Below the pieces are notes generated by a model. It had not been told where the DNA came from. It saw nothing but the letters and a program-made list of their open reading frames with translations, and did not search any database. The translations under genes were made by a program, and so were the position numbers. A stretch of DNA of 64,000 bases from an uncultured Rhodospirillales bacterium (GTDB taxonomy: Bacteria; Pseudomonadota; Alphaproteobacteria; ATCC43930; CGMCC-115725), in assembly GCA_903822185.1 (NCBI GenBank), contig CAIJOA010000014.1, positions 124,001-188,000 of the forward strand, in the 5' to 3' direction. Below, piece after piece: positions 48,590-64,000 of the stretch; position 1 is the first letter of the stretch; each line of letters starts with the position of its first letter.

Positions 48590-50104
48590 TTACTGGAAGC
48601 GCGGAGTCTTGTGGAGATAATGCTTGCTCATCTCCGGCCGGTACTGCGCCATGATGTCCTTATCGAGGTCGGTGTCCGGCTTCGCATCCGGCGGCACTAG
48701 CGAGAAGTACGGCGATTCCTTCGTAGCTTGCTCGAATTCGTCATGCGCCGATTTCAGGACATCGGGCGAAGTCATGAAATCGAGGATGGTTGCGGCGAGG
48801 ACCTTGGCGCCGGCGACTTCGCCCTTATGGGCGATCGTGCTGGTCGGTGTCACGGCAGCCTGCCAGTTGTGATACTGGATGCCGGGGACGCTGGCCGGGA
48901 AGGTATAGACCACCGCCGGGACGACCCACGAGATATCGCCGCTATCGTTTGACGAGGTCGATTGCGGACGCGAACCGCCTTGTTGGGCGACGGTGTTGAG
49001 CCCGACCACCTTTACTTTTTCCGCGGCCTGGAAGTCGCGGGCGAATTTCTGTTCGTCGTCCGTCCATTTCGGCAGTCCGACCGCATCGATATTCTTTTGC
49101 ACGACACCGGCGAGGGCCTTGTTCGACAAGGCCGGCCATGCCGCCGCCTGATAGATGACGTCATGCGTCGTGCCGGCCATCAGGTCGGCGCCGTTCGCGA
49201 TATTCATCAGCTTGTCGTAGGTCGCCTTGGCATCGACCATGTTCGCGTCACGGACGAAGTACCAAATCTTCGTGTAGTCGGGGATGACGTTCGGCTGCAC
49301 ACCGCCGGCCATGATCGAGCGATGGATGCGATAGGTCGGCTTCAACTGTTGGCGCAGGAAGGCGACGCCGTTTTCCATCAGCTCCAACGCGTCAAGCGCG
49401 TTCTTGCCGTCCCAAGGATTGACCGCGCCGTGCGCCGTCTTGCCGTGGAAGACGATCTGCGTACCGATCGCGGCATAATTCTGCAGACCCCAACCGGTCG
49501 TAAGGTTGTCGCCGATATGAAGATAGATCGCGGCATCGACGTCCTTGAAATAGCCCGCCTTCACAATGAACGGACGGCTCGCGATTTCTTCTTCGGCAGG
49601 CCCGAAATTCACGGCGACGGTGCCGGGCAGATGGTATTTTTCCATCACCTGCTTCACCGCGAAGGCCGCGGCGGTTGCGACGCCGCCATGGGTGTTGTGG
49701 CCTTCCATATGGCCGGGCGCGCCGGGGATCAGCGGCTTGTGATCGAACTCAAGCGGGGTCTGCGAGCCGCCGGGCAGGGCGTCGATCTCGCTTTCGATGA
49801 CGATGTAGGGTTTGCCCGAGCCCCATTTGGCCCAGAAATTCGTCGGCATGCCAGCGCCGCCCAACTCGACTTGGAAACCGGCTGCTTCCATCGTGTCCTT
49901 CAAGAGCTTCGTGCTCTCGAATTCCTGCATGCCCATTTCGGCGAAATAATAGATCGAATCGCCGATGTCCCAGATCGCTTGGCTGTTCTTTTCGACGACG
50001 CCATAGGCCATCGTCTTTTGTTCGTCGTTTGCCGCGCGGGCCGTGGGCAGGAATACCAGCAACGCCGCTGCCGCGGCCGAAAGGCTCAACCAATTCTTCG
50101 TCAT
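48590..50104 (-). CDS. Exported M20-family amidohydrolase (AbgB-like)
   Basis: Zinc peptidase/amidohydrolase of the M20 family, 504 aa, with a Sec signal (1-24, TARA). The metal site is visible: HNTHGG with His136 and His139, then GPAEEE with the catalytic Glu171 and metal Glu172, and later metal His in the YHNW region. Related enzymes are AbgB (p-aminobenzoyl-glutamate) and indole-acetyl-amino-acid hydrolases, so it probably releases an aromatic acid or amine from an amide conjugate in the periplasm. ATG at 50104 has AAGGGGA upstream. The two flanking LLM genes are on the same strand. Confidence 0.88.
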   Translation of the reverse strand: MTKNWLSLSAAAAALLVFLPTARAANDEQKTMAYGVVEKNSQAIWDIGDSIYYFAEMGMQEFESTKLLKDTMEAAGFQVELGGAGMPTNFWAKWGSGKPYIVIESEIDALPGGSQTPLEFDHKPLIPGAPGHMEGHNTHGGVATAAAFAVKQVMEKYHLPGTVAVNFGPAEEEIASRPFIVKAGYFKDVDAAIYLHIGDNLTTGWGLQNYAAIGTQIVFHGKTAHGAVNPWDGKNALDALELMENGVAFLRQQLKPTYRIHRSIMAGGVQPNVIPDYTKIWYFVRDANMVDAKATYDKLMNIANGADLMAGTTHDVIYQAAAWPALSNKALAGVVQKNIDAVGLPKWTDDEQKFARDFQAAEKVKVVGLNTVAQQGGSRPQSTSSNDSGDISWVVPAVVYTFPASVPGIQYHNWQAAVTPTSTIAHKGEVAGAKVLAATILDFMTSPDVLKSAHDEFEQATKESPYFSLVPPDAKPDTDLDKDIMAQYRPEMSKHYLHKTPRFQ

Positions 50105-50117
50105 CAAAATCCCCTTG

Positions 50118-51320
50118 TTATTCACTTGCGGCGGCATCCGCCGCATCGCGCCGGCCTGAAATCGCATCGTCCGGAAATTCCTCTTTCAGCCGCGGATAGA
50201 CATGGCGGGCAAAGGACCGGATACCGGCGACCGTCTCCTCATGATCGAGGAAACCGGCCTGTCCCATCAACAGAAGATTTCCAAATCCGCCGACATGATG
50301 ATAGAAATTTTTTATCTGACCAAAGACCTGATCGGGCGTGCCGCAGAACATCGTGCCGTTCGCCATCGCGCCGTCGATCGTCGAATTCGCCCCGAAATTG
50401 CCGAATCCACCGCCCGCGGCGTCTCCCAGCATCATTTTCACGTTCGCCTCGATCGGGCTGTAGCCCGGCGGATTGCGGAACCAAGGTGAAATTTTGTTCG
50501 CGGTTACGTACCACAGCAGCTTCTCGGCCCCGGCCCGTGCTTTCGCCTCGGTATCGGCGACATAGACCATCGCCGCATAGGCAAGCCGGTTGACCGGCAC
50601 GTCGATACCCCTGCCGGCCTCGCGCCAGCCTTTGCGATAAGCGTCATAGATCGCTGGTGTGCCTTTGAAGCCGGTGAGGAATGTCGCCTGGATATAGCCA
50701 TGCGCGCCCACTTGCCCCGCGCCGCCAGGGCTCGTGGTGCTGACCCAGATCGGCGGGTGTGGGCTTTGATAGGGGCGCGGCCAGATATTGATGTTGCGGT
50801 GATGGAAGAACCGCCCTTCGAAACTGGTCGGACCATCATGGCCGGTCCAGGCCTGAACGATCATGTCCAGCGCTTCCCAGTGCCGCTCGTTCATGCGGAC
50901 AGGGTTGCTGTTCGCCGGCAGAAGTTCGGTCGGTACGCCGCGTACAAAGCCCGCTTCGAGACGGCCCTTCGACAGGACATCGATCATCGCCATCTCTTCG
51001 GCGACGCGCACCGGCTGGCGGCGGTTGGCGATCGGGTTGCCGAGGATCAGCAGTCGCGCCTTCGACGTTAGCCGCGCCAGTGCGGCCAGGACCAAAGGCG
51101 CCGTTGGATCGACGCAGGTCGCCGACTGATGATGCTCGTTGAGCATGATGTTGACGCCTTCTTCCTCGGCGATCTGCCATTCGGTGAGGAAGCGGTCGTA
51201 GAGTTCGGCGCCTTTGACCGGATCGTAGAGTCGGTTCGGCAAGGTCACGCGGATCGACTCATACTCGTCGGTCGGCGGGAGGAAAGGATAGGCGTTCTCG
51301 CTGAAATGCCAGGCGCGCAT
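50118..51320 (-). CDS. LLM-class flavin-dependent oxidoreductase
   Basis: Luciferase-like flavin monooxygenase, 400 aa: MLNEHHQSATCVDPTAPLVLAALAR, IDVLSKGRLEAGFVRGVPTELLPANSNP, WPRPYQSPHPPIWVSTTSPGG. Paralogous in plan to the neighbour at 47390-48565. Four bases after the alpha/beta hydrolase stop and 13 bases before the M20 start, so part of one transcript. Enzymes of this class can oxidatively open N-heterocyclic rings or cleave amide and C-S bonds (RutA, DszA), so ring opening of a nitrogen heterocycle is one option (inference). Confidence 0.88.
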   Translation of the reverse strand: MRAWHFSENAYPFLPPTDEYESIRVTLPNRLYDPVKGAELYDRFLTEWQIAEEEGVNIMLNEHHQSATCVDPTAPLVLAALARLTSKARLLILGNPIANRRQPVRVAEEMAMIDVLSKGRLEAGFVRGVPTELLPANSNPVRMNERHWEALDMIVQAWTGHDGPTSFEGRFFHHRNINIWPRPYQSPHPPIWVSTTSPGGAGQVGAHGYIQATFLTGFKGTPAIYDAYRKGWREAGRGIDVPVNRLAYAAMVYVADTEAKARAGAEKLLWYVTANKISPWFRNPPGYSPIEANVKMMLGDAAGGGFGNFGANSTIDGAMANGTMFCGTPDQVFGQIKNFYHHVGGFGNLLLMGQAGFLDHEETVAGIRSFARHVYPRLKEEFPDDAISGRRDAADAAASE

Positions 51321-51324
51321 GTTG

Positions 51325-52104
51325 TCAGGCTCCCCGGCCGAAGAAAGACGTGACCGCCGCGACGAAGGCCTCGGGCCGTTCGATATGCGGCAGATGACCC
51401 GCCTCGGGAATGGTCTCGATCAGCGCGCCCGGCACCAGCTGCGCATAGCGTTCGAGATAATCGGCGGTGACGAGGCCGTCGCTCGCGCCGCGCAGGAACA
51501 GCGTCGGCATGGTCAGGCAATGCAGCCGATGGCGCAGCTTCGGATTGTGCATGTAGGGTTCCCAAACCAGCAGCGACAGCGTCTCCGCGTTGCGGGCGAT
51601 GACGCGCATCTGTTCCTGCGACAGCTTCGACAGATCGACATGCGCCTTGACGGGATCATGGAACCGCATCCGGTTCATTGCTTCCTGGGAAACGGCGAAG
51701 ATGTCGGGAATGTCGAGCTCATCGCGGCGGCCGGTCTTCACGCCCTCGGGTCCGACCACGATAAGCTTGTCGATGCGGCGCATGATCTTGGTCGCTATCT
51801 CGGCTGCGATCCAGCCGCCGATCGAACAGCCGACGATGTGAACGCTTGGTAGGTCGAGCCGGTCGATCAACGCGACATAGACATGTGCGATATCGTCGAT
51901 CGCATCCATCCACTCGGGCAGGCTGGAATAACCGAAGCCCGGATGCGACGGCGCGATCACACGATAATGTTTGGCCAGCATGCCGACATAAGGGTCATCG
52001 GGCGAAAAGCCTTGACCGCTATGGAGAAGCAGGAGCGGCGGTCCTTCGCCGGCCTCGTGCAGTTCGAGATCGATATCGCCGATCTTGATCATGTCCCGCT
52101 TCAC
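51325..52104 (-). CDS. Alpha/beta hydrolase
   Basis: Alpha/beta-fold hydrolase, 259 aa. The nucleophile elbow is GCSIGG with Ser94; the acid is Asp209 (RGASDGLV) and the base His237 (PEAGHLPHIERPE). Such proteins cleave esters, lactones or carbon-carbon bonds of ring-fission products (MhpC/BphD-like). The start is taken as GTG 52104 with GGGAG eight bases upstream; ATG 52092 is the alternative. First gene of the five-gene group that ends in the FAD hydroxylase. Probably acts on a product of the LLM enzymes. Confidence 0.86.
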   Translation of the reverse strand: MKRDMIKIGDIDLELHEAGEGPPLLLLHSGQGFSPDDPYVGMLAKHYRVIAPSHPGFGYSSLPEWMDAIDDIAHVYVALIDRLDLPSVHIVGCSIGGWIAAEIATKIMRRIDKLIVVGPEGVKTGRRDELDIPDIFAVSQEAMNRMRFHDPVKAHVDLSKLSQEQMRVIARNAETLSLLVWEPYMHNPKLRHRLHCLTMPTLFLRGASDGLVTADYLERYAQLVPGALIETIPEAGHLPHIERPEAFVAAVTSFFGRGA

Positions 52105-56148: not shown

Positions 56149-56505
56149 TTAGTGATTCAGGATCGGAATATTCGCCGCGGTCGGTGTCGGCCCGGCCGAA
56201 AGCGACTGCAGATAGGCGATGATGTCGTAGGCATCCTTATTCGGAAGGACTTTCTCCGTATAGGGCGGCATCTGGGCGGCGGGGTTGCGGATCTGCTGCA
56301 ACATCGCTTCGGGCGGCAGGCCGTCATGGGCGATGCGCGGTCCTACAAAGCCGCCGCCGGTGCCGGTCGTTCCATGGCAGGCATAGCAGCCGTTGTTAAG
56401 GAACAAATCCTTGCCGTGCGCGGCGTCACCGCTCGGGAAGGTTTGTGCCCCGGCAGTGGCGGTGCCGAGAAGGATTGCGGTCAGGCCGATGAGGATGGAT
56501 TTCAT
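56149..56505 (-). CDS. Exported class I c-type cytochrome
   Basis: Periplasmic monoheme cytochrome, 118 aa: signal peptide (1-20, ATAGAQ), heme motif C40-Y-A-C43-H44 (GCYACHGTTGTGG) and Met79 (AQMPPY) as the likely sixth ligand. ATG at 56505 with GAGGTG upstream. It begins ten bases after the stop of the ThDP enzyme gene, so the two are almost certainly one operon, and the cytochrome is the natural electron acceptor for that enzyme (inference). Also resembles subunits that accompany flavoprotein dehydrogenases. Confidence 0.9.
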   Translation of the reverse strand: MKSILIGLTAILLGTATAGAQTFPSGDAAHGKDLFLNNGCYACHGTTGTGGGFVGPRIAHDGLPPEAMLQQIRNPAAQMPPYTEKVLPNKDAYDIIAYLQSLSAGPTPTAANIPILNH

Positions 56506-56515
56506 GTTGTTCACC

Positions 56516-58462
56516 TCAACGTCCCTGGCAGACGACATCGACGAGCGCGGGCTCGCCGTTCTTGACGACCTCGACGGCTTTCTTGATCGCGGCGCCGAGG
56601 TCTTTGGGATCGGTGATCGGACCCTGGCCATAGACGCCCATGCTGGTCGCCAGCTTGCTGTAATCGATGAAGGGATCGCGGATCGAGGTGCCGATATGCG
56701 TCCGGTCGGCGCCGCGCTGCATCCGGTTGGCAACTTGCTGCAACAGCATGATCTCCTGATGCCAAGCGCGGTTGTTGTGCATCAGATAGAGGATCGGAAT
56801 CTTCTCATGCGCCGCGGTCCAGAGCGACGAGGGGCAGCACATCAGATCGCCGTCGGCCTGGATGGCGACGGTGAAGCGGCCATGCTTTTTGTTGGCAAGG
56901 GCCGCGCCCAGTGCCGCCGGTGCGGTATAGCCGATGCCGTAAGCGCCCGCGTCGCCGATATAGCGATGGTGCTTGTCGGCGGTCCAAAGCTTCTGCGGCC
57001 AGTTCTGTTGAAAGCCAGTGCCGTTGGCGAGCGTCCAATCGAGATCGCGAATCTGCTCGTACAATTCGGCGCAGAGACGCGCTGTCGTGATCGGTTGCGA
57101 ATCCCAGCCTTCGGCTGCCGCGTCGCGCATCTCCAGCATCGTCTTCTTGTGCGCGTCGCCCAGTTTCTTGCCGCGCGCTTCGAAGGCTGATTTCTTGTCG
57201 CTGTCGATCAGATATTTCACCGCTTCGATCAGCGCCGGCAGCGTCGCCTCGGCATCGCCTTCGAGCGCGAGATCCACATCGGGGAAACGCTGAAAGTCCT
57301 GATAGTTGGCGTGGAAGTTCAGATCGACGCCGGTCAGGCTGACTTTCTTCGCTCCCGGTTTCGCAAACGAGCGTGAGCTGTATTCGGTGTGGGGCACGAA
57401 GCTGTTCGTCGTCGTCCAGAAATCGGTCATCTCCATGCCGAGGATCAGGTCGGCGCCGGCGATGACGGCGCGGCCGCGGCTCGACTGGTTCAGCGGGTGA
57501 CGCCAGGGGAAGTTCATCCGCATGCCGCCATCGACGACCGGCGCCTGCAGCAACTCGGCCAGTTCGATCATCGATTGCAGTCCGGCCGGTGTGCGGGCGA
57601 CGCGGTCGCAGGCCAACACCGGCGCTTCGGCAGCGACCAGCATCTTGGCCAATTCGCGCACGGCGTTTTCTTGCGCTTGCGGCGGGGCCAAACGCGGCAG
57701 CTTCGGGATCGACGGTTTCGGCCGATCCTCGATCGGGTCTTCCTGCAGATCGGTCGAGGTGACCATCAACACCGGGCCGCAGGGCGGCGTCATTGCGTAT
57801 TTATAGGCGCGGGTCGCGGACTCGCCCCAATGCTGCAGCGAGGCGGGTTGGTCGTCCCATTTGGTGAAGTCGCGCACGATGGCTGCGCCGTCCTGCACGC
57901 TATGGACAAAAGGGATGGTCGATTTGCGCGTGCGCGTGTCGGGCGATCCCGGCGTGATCAGGAAGATCGGCACGCGGTCGCAATAGGCGTTGTAGATCGC
58001 CATCGAGGCATGCTGCAGCCCGACCGTTTCGTGCATCATCGCGGCCATCGGCTTGCCTTCGATCTTGGCATAGCCGTGACACATCGCGACCGAGACTTCC
58101 TCGTGCATGCAGCTGAGGAAGTCGATATTGGGCTCGGTCACCATGCCGTAATTGATGATCGATTCATGGAGGCCGCGGAAACTCGATCCGACGAAAGCGG
58201 CGACATGCTCGATGCCGAGGCCGCGCATGACGTCGATCATGTAATCGCCGCCGCTCGACGATTGCGTCAGCTCCATCTTGTCCGACGGCGCGCCGCGTTC
58301 GGCTTCGCGGTTGGGAACGGCGGGAATGCTGCTGGCTGGGGCCGGTGCGGTATTCTGCGCGCGGGCATCAAGCGGCGCGGCCAACATGCCGGCGCCGGCG
58401 ATGCCTGCGCCCTTCAGGAAACCGCGGCGCCCGACCGAGCGTTCATCCTTAGATTTCGCCAT
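56516..58462 (-). CDS. Tat-exported thiamine-diphosphate-dependent enzyme (acetolactate synthase / benzoylformate decarboxylase fold)
   Basis: ThDP enzyme, 648 aa. A twin-arginine signal (VGRRGFLKGAGIAGAG, then AAPLDARAQ) predicts folded export to the periplasm. The PYR domain has the catalytic Glu121 (MHEEVSVAMCHGYAK), the central domain follows (~210-350), and the PP domain carries the cofactor motif ADGD...MHNN at ~537-564. Members decarboxylate or oxidise 2-oxo acids; a periplasmic one with a cytochrome next door suggests oxidation of an external 2-oxo acid with electrons passed to cytochrome c. No FAD-binding signature is obvious. ATG at 58462 with GGGAG upstream. Confidence 0.86.
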   Translation of the reverse strand: MAKSKDERSVGRRGFLKGAGIAGAGMLAAPLDARAQNTAPAPASSIPAVPNREAERGAPSDKMELTQSSSGGDYMIDVMRGLGIEHVAAFVGSSFRGLHESIINYGMVTEPNIDFLSCMHEEVSVAMCHGYAKIEGKPMAAMMHETVGLQHASMAIYNAYCDRVPIFLITPGSPDTRTRKSTIPFVHSVQDGAAIVRDFTKWDDQPASLQHWGESATRAYKYAMTPPCGPVLMVTSTDLQEDPIEDRPKPSIPKLPRLAPPQAQENAVRELAKMLVAAEAPVLACDRVARTPAGLQSMIELAELLQAPVVDGGMRMNFPWRHPLNQSSRGRAVIAGADLILGMEMTDFWTTTNSFVPHTEYSSRSFAKPGAKKVSLTGVDLNFHANYQDFQRFPDVDLALEGDAEATLPALIEAVKYLIDSDKKSAFEARGKKLGDAHKKTMLEMRDAAAEGWDSQPITTARLCAELYEQIRDLDWTLANGTGFQQNWPQKLWTADKHHRYIGDAGAYGIGYTAPAALGAALANKKHGRFTVAIQADGDLMCCPSSLWTAAHEKIPILYLMHNNRAWHQEIMLLQQVANRMQRGADRTHIGTSIRDPFIDYSKLATSMGVYGQGPITDPKDLGAAIKKAVEVVKNGEPALVDVVCQGR

Positions 58463-58583: not shown

Positions 58584-59006
58584 ATGCAGCAACAAATGTC
58601 GCTCATCACGCTGGGCATCGCCGATCTCGCGCGATCACAAAGGTTCTATGGCGGAGGCTTCGGCTGGACGCCGGTGTTCGAGACACCGGGAATCGTTTTC
58701 TATCAGATGAACGGTCTGATGCTGGGCCTCTGGCCGCAGAAGGATTTGGAAGAAGACATGCAGCGTGGCGGACTTGCGCGCCCGGGTGCTTTTGCCTTGG
58801 CGCATAACGTCCCTACTAAGGAAGACGTGCAGATCGTGCTCGATCGTCTTGCGACGGCAGGAGGTCGTATCCTGCGCAACGGCGATGCGCCGCCGCATGG
58901 CGGGTTTCGCGGTTATGTCGCCGATCCTGACGACCACGCGTGGGAGATCGCCTGGAACCCGGCATGGCCGATCGATGCGCAGGGGCACGTCACCTTCGGC
59001 ATTTGA
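58584..59006 (+). CDS. VOC-family protein
   Basis: Vicinal-oxygen-chelate protein, 140 aa. The core reads MSLITLGIADLARSQRFYGGGFGWTPVF, then GAFALAHNVPTKEDV and a C-terminal YVADPDDHAWEIAWNP with Glu. The ATG at 58584 has AGGT nearby; an ATG five codons upstream is a possible alternative. Divergent from the Tat-exported ThDP gene. Lacks a clear first His, so metal binding may differ from typical glyoxalases. Function unknown. Confidence 0.78.
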   Translation: MQQQMSLITLGIADLARSQRFYGGGFGWTPVFETPGIVFYQMNGLMLGLWPQKDLEEDMQRGGLARPGAFALAHNVPTKEDVQIVLDRLATAGGRILRNGDAPPHGGFRGYVADPDDHAWEIAWNPAWPIDAQGHVTFGI

Positions 59007-59122
59007 GGGCGTCATCTTTCCGTAACGTAAGCGGGCTAAGACGGCTTTTCGCCGCAATCGCTTTGCATGGTTCGGCACATCCGGTAAACCGGCGAGGGCC
59101 GGACGATGCGGCGGGGGACTTC

Positions 59123-60442
59123 ATGGCGATGGTGGCGCGTTTTTCGATTCTGATGCTGACGGCGTGCGTCTTCTTTGGCGCTGCGCAGGCGCGTGCCGAC
59201 GATCAAGCGCCGTTCGAACCGGAGGATTGGAGCCTCCACGCACAGACGACCTTCATCGAACAAACCAATCTACGGTTTCACTCGCTCTATCGCGGTCAGA
59301 ACAGTCTCGATCAGGCCCCGCGCGGCCGCGAATCCTGGACCGGCACCTTGTTCCTCGGGCGGCGTCTGCCGTGGCAGGGTGGCGAGTTCTATTTTAATCC
59401 GGAATTCAACCAGGGCTTCGGCCTCGGCAAGACGGAAGGCGTCGCCGGCTATGTGAACGGCGAAGCGCAAAAGGGCGGCTACGATAACCCGAAGGCCAAT
59501 GTCGGGCGTCTGTTCTATCGCCAGACATTTGGTCTCGGCGGCGATCAAGAGACGCTGGCGGCCGGCCCGAACCAACTCGGAACTAAGGTCGATATCTCGC
59601 GCCTGACCTTCACCGCTGGCAAGCTTTCACCGACGGATATCTTCGATACCAACGATTACGCCGACGATCCGCGCGAGACGTTCCTCAACGGCAGCATCTG
59701 GGCGGCTGGCGCGTGGGACTATCCCGCCGACGCAAAAGGCTACAGCGATGGCGCCGTCGCCGAATGGAACGAGGCGCATTTCACCCTGCGTGGCGGCTGG
59801 TTCCTCGAACCCAAGATTGCCAACAACCGCGATCTCGAGCCACGTTTCTGGCACAGCTTCGGCGCGATGACCGAACTCGAGACGCGTTACAGCCTCGGCG
59901 AACGCGCCGGCGTGTTGAAGTTCTTGGTGTTCGCCAATCGCGCGGCGATGGGATCGAACGATCAGGCGGCGGCGAATGGCGGCAACATCGCGATCACCCG
60001 GCGTTCGCGCTGGAAGCCAGGCTTCGTCGTCAATCTGCAGCAAGAAATCATCGACGATCTCGGCGGCTTCGGACGCTTTAGTCTCAGCAACGGCCATACC
60101 GAAAGCTGGGCCTTCGAGGATATCGATCAAAGCACGTCGTTCGGCCTTAGCCTCAAAGGCTCACGCTGGAGCCGACCCAAAGACACAGTCGCGATCGGTT
60201 TCGCGCAGAACGAACTGACGCAGCAGCATCGCAATTACTTCGCGGCGGGCGGGACGGGGATTCTGGTCGGCGACGGTGCGCTGAACTATTCGCCCGAACG
60301 GATCATCGAGACCTACTATCGCGCCCAGATCGTCGATCCGGTGTCGCTGACGCTCGATTATCAGTATGTGACGAACCCGGCTTACAATGCGGCGCGTGGT
60401 CCGGTCTCGATCTTCGGCGCGAGGTTGCACATCGCGTACTGA
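59123..60442 (+). CDS. OprB-family (carbohydrate-selective type) outer-membrane porin
   Basis: Outer-membrane beta-barrel, 439 aa: signal peptide (~1-25, QARA), then alternating aromatic/polar strands. The OprB signature is clear in DISRLTFTAGKLSPTDIFDTNDYADDPRETFLN and GAVAEWNEAHFTLRGGWFLEP. Ends in an aromatic residue (HIAY), as expected for barrel insertion. May import sugars or aromatic acids; specificity cannot be read. ATG at 59123 follows GGGGGACTTC; ATG 59129 is an alternative. Followed by a family A repeat. Confidence 0.88.
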   Translation: MAMVARFSILMLTACVFFGAAQARADDQAPFEPEDWSLHAQTTFIEQTNLRFHSLYRGQNSLDQAPRGRESWTGTLFLGRRLPWQGGEFYFNPEFNQGFGLGKTEGVAGYVNGEAQKGGYDNPKANVGRLFYRQTFGLGGDQETLAAGPNQLGTKVDISRLTFTAGKLSPTDIFDTNDYADDPRETFLNGSIWAAGAWDYPADAKGYSDGAVAEWNEAHFTLRGGWFLEPKIANNRDLEPRFWHSFGAMTELETRYSLGERAGVLKFLVFANRAAMGSNDQAAANGGNIAITRRSRWKPGFVVNLQQEIIDDLGGFGRFSLSNGHTESWAFEDIDQSTSFGLSLKGSRWSRPKDTVAIGFAQNELTQQHRNYFAAGGTGILVGDGALNYSPERIIETYYRAQIVDPVSLTLDYQYVTNPAYNAARGPVSIFGARLHIAY

Positions 60443-61622: not shown

Positions 61623-62372
61623 ATGAATGTAACGTCGCATCACGGGCGTTTTGTCGCGCCGCGCGCCGAAGTGCGGGTCGTGCACAGCTCGGACGTCCAT
61701 ATCTGCGAAGGCTTCACCGAACCCGTTCATAACGGCGACGGCACGGCCGGGCTGCGAGTCGTGCTGGCAGCGGCGCGCGCAAACAAGGCCGATGTCGTGG
61801 TGCTGGCCGGAGACACGTTCGAACATAACCGCCTCTCGGCCGACATTCTCGATCGCACGGCGGCGCTGCTGCAGAAGGCCGGCATGCCGGTCGTCATCCT
61901 GCCGGGCAATCATGATCCCGCGATTGCCGATTCGGTGTTCGCGCGCGGCATCGCCGACCTCCCCGATGTATATGTGCTGGGCGTGACGCATGAGGCAGCG
62001 GTGTCCTTTCCCGAACTGGGACTCGATGTCTGGGGCAACGCGCATCGCGACTATGGCGACATGGCGCCGCTCGCGCGCAATCACCCGCGCAACAGCTTCT
62101 GGCAGATCGCGGTGGCGCACGGCCATTACGATCCGAAGCCCGATCTCTCGACCAAGCTGCGGCCGTCCTGGCTGATCAGTGACAAGGAACTGACCGCAAC
62201 CGGCGCCGACTATATCGCGCTGGGTCACTGGAATCGTCCGATCCGCGTCGGGCCGGGACCGATCGAGGCGTTCTATTCGGGTTCGCCCGATCTCGCGAAT
62301 ACCGTCAATCTCGTGCGCCTTGTTTCGACCGGCGAGGTGATCGTCTCGCGCGAAGCGGTGGACTGGACCTAA
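61623..62372 (+). CDS. Metallophosphoesterase (calcineurin-like)
   Basis: Binuclear-metal phosphoesterase, 249 aa. The metal motifs are in order: HSSDVHICEG (Asp24, His26), VLAGDTFEHNR (Asp64), GNHD (LPGNHDPAIADS), and AHGHY near 164. Fits the SbcD/YkuE-like exonuclease-phosphodiesterase family. Convergent with the Pht5-like gene, the stops overlapping by four bases. No nuclease partner (SbcC) is adjacent, so a nucleotide or phospholipid phosphodiesterase is as likely. Start ATG 61623 has only a weak site. Confidence 0.88.
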   Translation: MNVTSHHGRFVAPRAEVRVVHSSDVHICEGFTEPVHNGDGTAGLRVVLAAARANKADVVVLAGDTFEHNRLSADILDRTAALLQKAGMPVVILPGNHDPAIADSVFARGIADLPDVYVLGVTHEAAVSFPELGLDVWGNAHRDYGDMAPLARNHPRNSFWQIAVAHGHYDPKPDLSTKLRPSWLISDKELTATGADYIALGHWNRPIRVGPGPIEAFYSGSPDLANTVNLVRLVSTGEVIVSREAVDWT

Positions 62373-63349
62373 ATCCGGAAGCCGCCGCGCTTTCGACCTT
62401 CGGACACATCGAGGAACAGCTCGTCGAGCGGCAGGCGCCGCTTCGTCAAACCCTGCTCGTGCGAGTAACCGACCAGCGTTTCGAGTGTCTTGATGTTCTG
62501 CGGCGTCAGGCCGTTCTCCCACGGGTCCGGGCCGAGAATTTCCATCTGCTCTTCCCAAGCCTCGCGATACCAGGCGAGCGGCGTGATGCGGGGATTCTCC
62601 ATCCGCTTCGCCGCGATCTTTTTCGAGGCATTGAAAGCTCGATAGAGATTGACCGCCGCCCAGGGATATTTCGCGACGACATCTTCGCGCATGGCGACGA
62701 CGTGCATGATCGGAAAGATGCCGGTCTTGCGGACATAGGCTTGTTCTTCGGCCTTGTGATCAGCAAAGAGCCGCGCGACGCGTTTGTCTTTTTTGATGAA
62801 CGGCTCGATCAGATCGGAATGGAGCACCGCATCCAATTCGCCTTCGGCCAACATCGCCTCGACCGACTGGTCATGGCGCAGCCGCGTCAATTTGAGATCG
62901 GGTGAGGGCGTGAACTCGACGTCCTCGTCGATCTCGGCGTACCAGTCGATCGATTTATGCGGCACGCCATATTCGCTTTCGAGGATGCCGCGCAGCCAAT
63001 GTACGCCCGTCACCTGAAAGGATTTGACGCCGATCTTGCGGCCGATGAGGTCGGTCGGCTTCGTAATGCCTTTGCCGGTATTGATGAAAACAAAACCGTG
63101 ACGAAAGCGGCGATGCGGGAAGACCGGCAAGGCACGGAACGGCAAGCCTTGATCGCGTGCGATGATGTAGGACGAGCAGGAACATTCGGCGACATCGAAT
63201 TCGCGATTGCGCAGGAAACGCCAATGCCGCGTCGATGAATCCATGTCGGTCAGGACATTGAGGTTGATTCCGTCCGGCACGACCACGCCTTCCTTGAGGG
63301 CGCGGTGATGTTCATAGTCGCCGATGGCGAGGGTGAGGTCCGCGCGCAT
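62369..63349 (-). CDS. 4,5-dihydroxyphthalate decarboxylase-like / ABC binding-fold protein
   Basis: Protein of the 4,5-dihydroxyphthalate decarboxylase (Pht5) family, which has a periplasmic-binding-protein-like fold, 326 aa. Typical phrases are LTLAIGDYEHHRALKEGVV, FRALPVFPHRRFRHGFVFINTG and GIFPIMHVVAMREDVV. No signal peptide is seen, which supports a cytoplasmic decarboxylase over a transport receptor. Starts with TAATG overlap from the lyase gene, so it is coupled. In this aromatic setting, decarboxylation of a dihydroxy-phthalate-like intermediate is plausible but not shown. Confidence 0.82.
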   Translation of the reverse strand: MRADLTLAIGDYEHHRALKEGVVVPDGINLNVLTDMDSSTRHWRFLRNREFDVAECSCSSYIIARDQGLPFRALPVFPHRRFRHGFVFINTGKGITKPTDLIGRKIGVKSFQVTGVHWLRGILESEYGVPHKSIDWYAEIDEDVEFTPSPDLKLTRLRHDQSVEAMLAEGELDAVLHSDLIEPFIKKDKRVARLFADHKAEEQAYVRKTGIFPIMHVVAMREDVVAKYPWAAVNLYRAFNASKKIAAKRMENPRITPLAWYREAWEEQMEILGPDPWENGLTPQNIKTLETLVGYSHEQGLTKRRLPLDELFLDVSEGRKRGGFRI

Positions 63350-64000
63350 TAGTGGTACGCCGCCAGAACGCGATCGATCATCTCACCCGCCTGTCCCAGA
63401 TAATTCGCCGGATCGACCAGTTTCGCCAGTTCGTCGCGGCCCATATGCGGTGAAATCTCCGGGTCGGCGACCAGCAGATCGAGGAACGATCCGCCGGTGG
63501 TGATTGCCTTCCTGCAAATGTCATAGACCAGATCATGCGCGCGCTGCCGGCCGAGATAAGGCCCAAGACCCATCATCACGGCTTCGGACACGATCATGCC
63601 GCGCGTGATGTCGAGATTGGCGCGCATCCGCTTCGGATCGACCTCGAGCCCTTCGAGGAGGAACCGCGCCTGATTGAGCGCGCCTGCGGCGAGCAGGAAA
63701 ATCTCCGGCATCGCAATCCATTCGATCTCCCACGGTCCGGTCGAACGTTCGTGATCCTCGACCATCGCGTCCAGTAGTGCCGCCACGTTCTGCCGCACCA
63801 TCGAGGTGCAGGCGACGATGTAATTGCAGGAAATCGGATTGCGCTTTTGCGGCATGGTGCTGGACGAGCCGCGGCCCTCCGCGAAAGGCTCGTACACCTC
63901 TTCGACTTCGGTCTGCATCATCAGCTTCACATCGGTCGCGATCTTGCCCAGCGTGCCGGTGACAAGACCGAGGAAACACCCGACCTCGGCGAAGCTATCG
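63349..64000 (-). CDS. Fumarase/aspartase-superfamily lyase (3-carboxymuconate cycloisomerase-like), 5' end missing
   Basis: C-terminal 216 residues of a lyase, the frame open to the window end. The superfamily signature GRGSSSTMPQKRNPISCNY is intact, preceded by GTLGKIATDVKLMMQTEVEEV. The style is closest to PcaB-type 3-carboxy-cis,cis-muconate cycloisomerase and argininosuccinate/adenylosuccinate lyases; the N terminus that would decide is outside. Coupled by a one-base overlap to the Pht5-like gene, which supports a role in aromatic breakdown. Confidence 0.85.
   Translation of the reverse strand, partial: DSFAEVGCFLGLVTGTLGKIATDVKLMMQTEVEEVYEPFAEGRGSSSTMPQKRNPISCNYIVACTSMVRQNVAALLDAMVEDHERSTGPWEIEWIAMPEIFLLAAGALNQARFLLEGLEVDPKRMRANLDITRGMIVSEAVMMGLGPYLGRQRAHDLVYDICRKAITTGGSFLDLLVADPEISPHMGRDELAKLVDPANYLGQAGEMIDRVLAAYH

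Follow-up and report, generated by a model that had tools for sequence, protein, structure and literature searches.

The analyzed window, a stretch of 64,000 nucleotides from an uncultured Rhodospirillales bacterium, encodes a predicted exported thiamine diphosphate (ThDP)-dependent enzyme followed directly by a c-type cytochrome, and this pair of genes is conserved among distant bacteria. We consider it somewhat probable that the two proteins constitute a periplasmic dehydrogenase, i.e., a 2-oxo-acid:cytochrome c oxidoreductase acting by oxidative decarboxylation, for which we infer substrate, ThDP binding, electron transfer, and product. The narrower proposal of a periplasmic ThDP dehydrogenase for 2-oxo acids (or aldehydes) that would work without flavin, pass Breslow electrons directly to a dedicated c-type cytochrome, and form a previously undescribed respiratory enzyme class is made more tentatively, at slightly less than even chances. 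A conserved pair, a Tat signal, and a single clade, as expected of a periplasmic ThDP dehydrogenase coupled to a cytochrome, are all found. To our knowledge, ThDP decarboxylases and oxidases are cytoplasmic. The features of the locus are as follows.

56149..56505, minus strand: monohaem class I-type c cytochrome with Sec signal (118 residues; one CYACH; Pfam PF13442, PF00034)
56511..56517, minus strand: Shine-Dalgarno-like GAGGTGA, read from the sequence, overlapping the ThDP stop codon
56516..58462, minus strand: predicted exported ThDP-dependent enzyme with benzoylformate-decarboxylase/ALS-type fold (648 residues; Pfam, AF2, Foldseek)
56753..56860, minus strand: predicted Mg/ThDP motif A-D-G-D ... 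H-N-N-R-A-W-H-Q-E, residues 535-570, with invariant residues
58097..58105, minus strand: H120-E121-E122, catalytic Glu region of the predicted ThDP site (H120 and E121 invariant, n=45; aligned with the Glu of benzoylformate decarboxylase)
58355..58462, minus strand: predicted twin-arginine signal peptide, residues 1-36 (GRRGFLK, hydrophobic core, DARAQ), assigned from sequence, Tat rule, RR conserved in the clade, and the low-confidence N-terminus of the model
58940..60442, plus strand: divergent OprB-type porin (Pfam PF04966), possibly for uptake, by association only; porins or TonB receptors occur at other loci

A preliminary description had attributed to this locus a twin-arginine signal on the 648-residue protein, an intact ThDP site (Glu121; ADGD...NN), and a Sec-exported monohaem cytochrome starting ten bases after the ThDP stop, and these attributions stand. 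By a simple Tat rule, as opposed to a trained predictor, the N-terminus of the ThDP protein, VGRRGFLKGAGIAGAGMLAAPLDARA-Q, qualifies as a Tat signal, in that an RRxFLK motif is followed by a hydrophobic uncharged stretch and an AxA-like cleavage site, and export is predicted on this basis. TatC, CcmF, and a haem-copper oxidase are all encoded in the host genome. The Pfam domains PF02776, PF00205, and PF02775 (TPP_enzyme_N/M/C) all score above their gathering cut-offs, and together with the catalytic Glu and the (G)DG...NN motif they assign the protein, as judged from its sequence, to the superfamily of TPP-dependent enzymes. In the AF2 model (pLDDT 83, pTM 0.83) confidence is low up to residue 66, and the ThDP fold extends from there on. 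With this fold, Foldseek retrieves ThDP lyases and decarboxylases, namely 2-hydroxyacyl-CoA lyases, benzoylformate decarboxylases, and benzaldehyde lyase (TMt ~0.8); a viral fold library gives distant superfamily matches only. The closest solved structures by sequence are benzoylformate decarboxylases, which are also among the best by fold.

Residues H120, E121, D537, G538, N563, N564, R565, A566, H568, and E570 are invariant in an alignment of 45 homologues; the host paralogue discussed below lies outside this alignment and has F in place of H568. The first Gly of the GDG motif is replaced by Ala in the window protein, which further on has NNRAWHQE, whereas its Tat-less sisters mostly have NNR followed by xxND.

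The 118-residue partner exceeds the gathering cut-offs of Cytochrome_CBB3 (PF13442) and Cytochrom_C (PF00034) and has the attributes of a class I c-type cytochrome, i.e., one CxxCH, an axial Met, a helical fold, and a Sec signal. Throughout the cytochrome family, CxxCHG and the axial Met as sixth ligand are invariant, and a few partner cytochromes have a second haem site. Fold matches of the cytochrome are generic and weak (best E 0.027), with a weak resemblance of the model to the cytochrome of p-cresol methylhydroxylase (PCMH) and to SorU. The 10-nt gap separating the ThDP stop from the cytochrome start on the same strand and the overlap of the cytochrome's GAGGTGA with the ThDP stop codon suggest, from the sequence, that both genes are translationally coupled. 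As glyoxalase and OprB porin genes upstream of the pair are both divergent and pepN follows about 80 nt downstream, the transcription unit probably consists of the ThDP and cytochrome genes alone; there may be read-through into pepN.

A scan of genome contigs identifies 79 loci from Alpha-, Beta-, and Gammaproteobacteria and from Acidobacteriota, 36-79% identical, and together with relatives and plasmids the exported homologues total 89, the window included, the best ORF per locus being chosen with phmmer. The Tat rule is passed by 81 of these 89; among the other eight, the ORF is cut short or begins at the wrong start, or else the hydrophobic stretch is shorter, and RR occurs in every exported homologue whose sequence includes the N-terminus. 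An adjacent cytochrome gene on the same strand accompanies the ThDP gene at all exported loci with flanking DNA (88/88), upstream in two of them and downstream in the rest; the 89th homologue (L081) stops at a contig end. The conserved synteny that the preliminary description proposed to look for holds across two phyla. None of the three findings that it named as refuting turned up, the Tat rule being passed and the ThDP residues being invariant as well. In the same DNA, an open frame with CxxCHG occurs in 72 of 2576 random 800-nt stretches (2.8%), and against this background chance neighbors are ruled out. None of the loci carries a fused ThDP-cytochrome gene (ThDP ORFs of 537-727 residues). 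In the two loci from Acidobacteria gp5 (L018 and L036) the order is swapped, the ThDP gene being preceded by two genes for monohaem cytochromes; another locus (L087:1862-6015) is a tandem array in which a second Tat-ThDP gene lies 528 nt past the first, with a cytochrome between them. The pair is rare: at E<=1e-120 it is present in 5 of 61 relatives, and 397 genomes of the phylum yield no further exported-type match at E<=1e-60, which points to an accessory trait that is sometimes plasmid-borne. The Caballeronia copy is located on a mobilizable plasmid, where it is annotated merely as 'thiamine pyrophosphate-binding protein' and 'c-type cytochrome.'

As a control, 14 Tat-less relatives were considered, nine from the sister clade and the others from the host genome, and both Tat signal and adjacent cytochrome are absent in all 14, in contrast to the 88 exported loci with a cytochrome. 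In a tree of 101 proteins, built by a quick method and with some long outgroup branches, the exported proteins form a single clade (SH-aLRT 98), and the labels exported and Tat-less require one change, compared with 12.4 in shuffles. Pairwise distances of ThDP proteins and cytochromes are correlated (Mantel r 0.905; maximum 0.108 in 500 permutations), part of which is shared vertical descent. The host genome encodes a second complete Tat-ThDP and cytochrome pair (G000:C32:83929-85881; L002:1122-3534, minus strand) beside ssb. The two ThDP proteins of the host are 54% and the two cytochromes 45% identical, and a congener carries orthologues of both pairs, indicating that ThDP and cytochrome genes were inherited and duplicated as a unit. 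The second pair displays RYYFQE after NN instead of the RAWHQE of the window protein, and from this difference in sequence its substrate may differ as well. Co-evolution and linkage establish a functional partnership rather than electron flow from ThDP.

Evidence of another kind for an oxidizing role comes from neighboring genes. Aldehyde dehydrogenase genes are encoded near six of the nine Tat-less sisters but near only four of the 88 exported loci with flanking DNA examined, where they never adjoin the pair (Fisher p 1.6e-5, or 1e-4 minus one near-duplicate, for nine sisters that are a small and phylogenetically non-independent sample). In a Salipiger sister (L097), two aldehyde dehydrogenase genes flank the ThDP gene, and an alpha-hydroxy-acid oxidase and a tripartite tricarboxylate transporter are encoded there as well, which is the context expected for 2-oxo-acid decarboxylation; in another sister (L099), genes for TctC, the ThDP enzyme, and an aldehyde dehydrogenase lie side by side. 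These contexts follow the logic of a mandelate-type route from hydroxy acid via 2-oxo acid and aldehyde to the acid. As the sisters are accompanied by aldehyde dehydrogenases and the exported enzymes by cytochromes, the oxidizing partner was apparently swapped when cytoplasm and NAD were left behind, and upon export the NAD-linked aldehyde dehydrogenase appears to have been replaced by cytochrome c. This contrast independently favors an oxidizing role on a 2-oxo-acid route. Of the periplasmic 2-oxo-acid oxidizing system conceived in the preliminary description, the oxidizing role has thereby gained support, and substrate, ThDP binding, electron transfer, and entry into the respiratory chain are parts that we infer.

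Outer-membrane channels beside several pairs, i.e., OprB in the window, porins at L030 and L094, and TonB-receptor-type proteins at L026, L028, L048, L051, L076, and L086, fit with substrate uptake into the periplasm. At some loci the neighbors belong to aromatic catabolism (a LigB-like dioxygenase, identified by reading, an FAA hydrolase, MFS transporters, a UbiX-like flavoprotein, and a ring dioxygenase); these neighbors, although not constant, hint at aromatic 2-oxo acids as substrates. No wider conserved operon that would name the substrate was found, neighbor families other than the cytochrome occurring at no more than 13 of about 80 loci (DUF6152) and all others at no more than nine, and the variable surroundings do not pin the substrate down. 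The 13 loci at which a DUF6152 protein of unknown function lies near the pair (L043, L049, L052, L056, L081, and others) come from Gammaproteobacteria and Acidobacteriota, and a secreted phosphatidylethanolamine-binding-like (PBP) protein follows the pair at L019:8377-8934, L020, and L022 in Beijerinckiaceae/Rhizobiales. In the window itself, positions 62369-63930 (minus strand) encode a 326-residue protein without Pfam match that is weakly SsuA-like, beside a fragment resembling by eye 3-carboxymuconate cycloisomerase/adenylosuccinate lyase, possibly for aromatic catabolism a few kb from the pair. Another possible catabolic cluster at 48590-52104 (minus strand) consists of an exported M20 amidohydrolase, a luciferase-like monooxygenase, and a PcaD-like alpha/beta hydrolase in a row.

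According to the mechanism that we propose, the ThDP enzyme would fold with ThDP/Mg in the cytoplasm and then be exported by the Tat system, and the monohaem cytochrome would be exported by Sec and matured by Ccm. A 2-oxo acid, probably aromatic or otherwise bulky, would enter through a porin or TonB receptor and be attacked by the periplasmic ThDP enzyme, yielding CO2 and a Breslow carbanion/enamine. The cytochrome would accept two electrons from the ThDP intermediate, one at a time, the acyl-ThDP would be hydrolyzed to the carboxylic acid, and the reduced cytochrome would deliver its electrons to the terminal oxidase, bypassing NAD and probably without need for FAD. Oxidation of a ThDP-bound intermediate by the cytochrome is the simplest chemistry, and we know of no natural precedent for one-electron oxidation of a Breslow intermediate directly by haem without FAD or FeS.

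Among other explanations, the one that survives best, unlikely as we judge it, is that the exported enzyme acts non-oxidatively, as a decarboxylase, C-C lyase, or carboligase, and that its aldehyde product is oxidized by another periplasmic enzyme, for example a PQQ- or molybdenum-dependent one, served by the cytochrome. Among the proteins nearest to it in fold are benzaldehyde lyase, 2-hydroxyacyl-CoA lyase, and benzoylformate decarboxylase, none of them oxidative, and PQQ-dehydrogenase-like genes are found near four loci; however, the pair has no dehydrogenase as a constant neighbor, and it is the ThDP gene itself that the cytochrome gene adjoins at 88 of 88 loci and with which it co-evolves. 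A further possibility, to which we assign a low probability, is that aldehydes rather than 2-oxo acids are oxidized by umpolung, the aldehyde adding to ThDP, the deprotonated Breslow intermediate being oxidized by the cytochrome, and hydrolysis following, as in a periplasmic aldehyde:cytochrome c oxidoreductase. Such an activity would match the replacement of aldehyde dehydrogenase by cytochrome and make decarboxylation unnecessary, but the Salipiger sister retains the alpha-hydroxy-acid oxidase, which would supply a 2-oxo acid, and we know of no ThDP enzyme with aldehyde oxidation as its main role, which counts against it.

A flavin-containing enzyme resembling pyruvate oxidase, with FAD between ThDP and cytochrome, seems a shade less probable still. 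Fold and middle domain are common to the relatives PoxB and AHAS, but the scores with pyruvate oxidase and AHAS models are far below the cut-offs and the FAD-linked motif GARFDDRVTG is missing. As this AHAS motif is present in the host's own IlvB, encoded by a separate gene (L104), and absent in the ThDP protein, the latter is probably without FAD; the FAD site considered in the preliminary description thus looks absent rather than present, and an FAD enzyme was rejected on this motif comparison. That a mis-targeted or vestigial ThDP protein merely lies beside an unrelated cytochrome gene would suit the generic annotation and the rarity of the system but is highly improbable given the strict linkage over two phyla, the intact catalytic residues, the co-evolution, and the duplication as a unit.

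If the two-protein dehydrogenase that we favor exists, ThDP would join PQQ, FAD, and molybdenum among the cofactors driving periplasmic dehydrogenases, and 2-oxo-acid oxidation would be tied to respiration without NAD. Proteins of soil and marine bacteria annotated just as 'thiamine pyrophosphate-binding protein' acquire a testable function, and the pair is a candidate for natural one-electron Breslow chemistry that would be of use to chemists. In the titles and abstracts of the open-access PMC literature searched, no description of a Tat-ThDP and cytochrome pair was found.

Among known enzymes, benzoylformate decarboxylase (MdlC; 4-hydroxybenzoylformate decarboxylases of Pf-5 and RHA1) shares with the window protein the three-domain ThDP fold, the catalytic Glu, and an aligned active-site His, and the 2-oxo-acid chemistry is likely common to both, although identity is only about 18-20% and NCBIfam PRK07092 gives 143.7 bits versus a cut-off of 493. 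Benzoylformate decarboxylase is cytoplasmic and non-oxidative, with an NAD(P)-aldehyde dehydrogenase downstream in the route. Acetolactate synthase (IlvB/AHAS) has the superfamily and the TPP_enzyme domains in common with the window protein, but TIGR00118 scores 118.5 bits versus a cut-off of 538, and its motif GARFDDRVTG is missing. The best-scoring named model is NCBIfam PRK08327, 'thiamine pyrophosphate-requiring protein' (238 bits, near full length), a model with no assigned function whose cut-off of 456 bits is not reached; nor are the other NCBIfam cut-offs tested, those for benzoylformate decarboxylase, acetolactate synthase, and pyruvate oxidase. PoxB, formerly 'pyruvate dehydrogenase (cytochrome)' (EC 1.2.2.2), carries out a ThDP-dependent oxidative decarboxylation that feeds the respiratory chain without NAD; it acts at the cytoplasmic face, requires FAD, reduces quinone, and has neither Tat signal nor cytochrome partner. 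The pyruvate oxidase model PRK08611 gives the window protein 81.5 versus a cut-off of 742. The proposed pair would thus resemble PoxB in purpose, i.e., 2-oxo-acid oxidation linked to respiration, and PQQ/cytochrome or PCMH pairs in architecture. Similarly to the window pair, PQQ alcohol dehydrogenases, p-cresol methylhydroxylase, and SorT/SorU each consist of an exported enzyme and its own c-type cytochrome; in contrast, these periplasmic pairs employ PQQ, FAD, or molybdenum, whereas the catalytic partner in the window pair is a ThDP enzyme.
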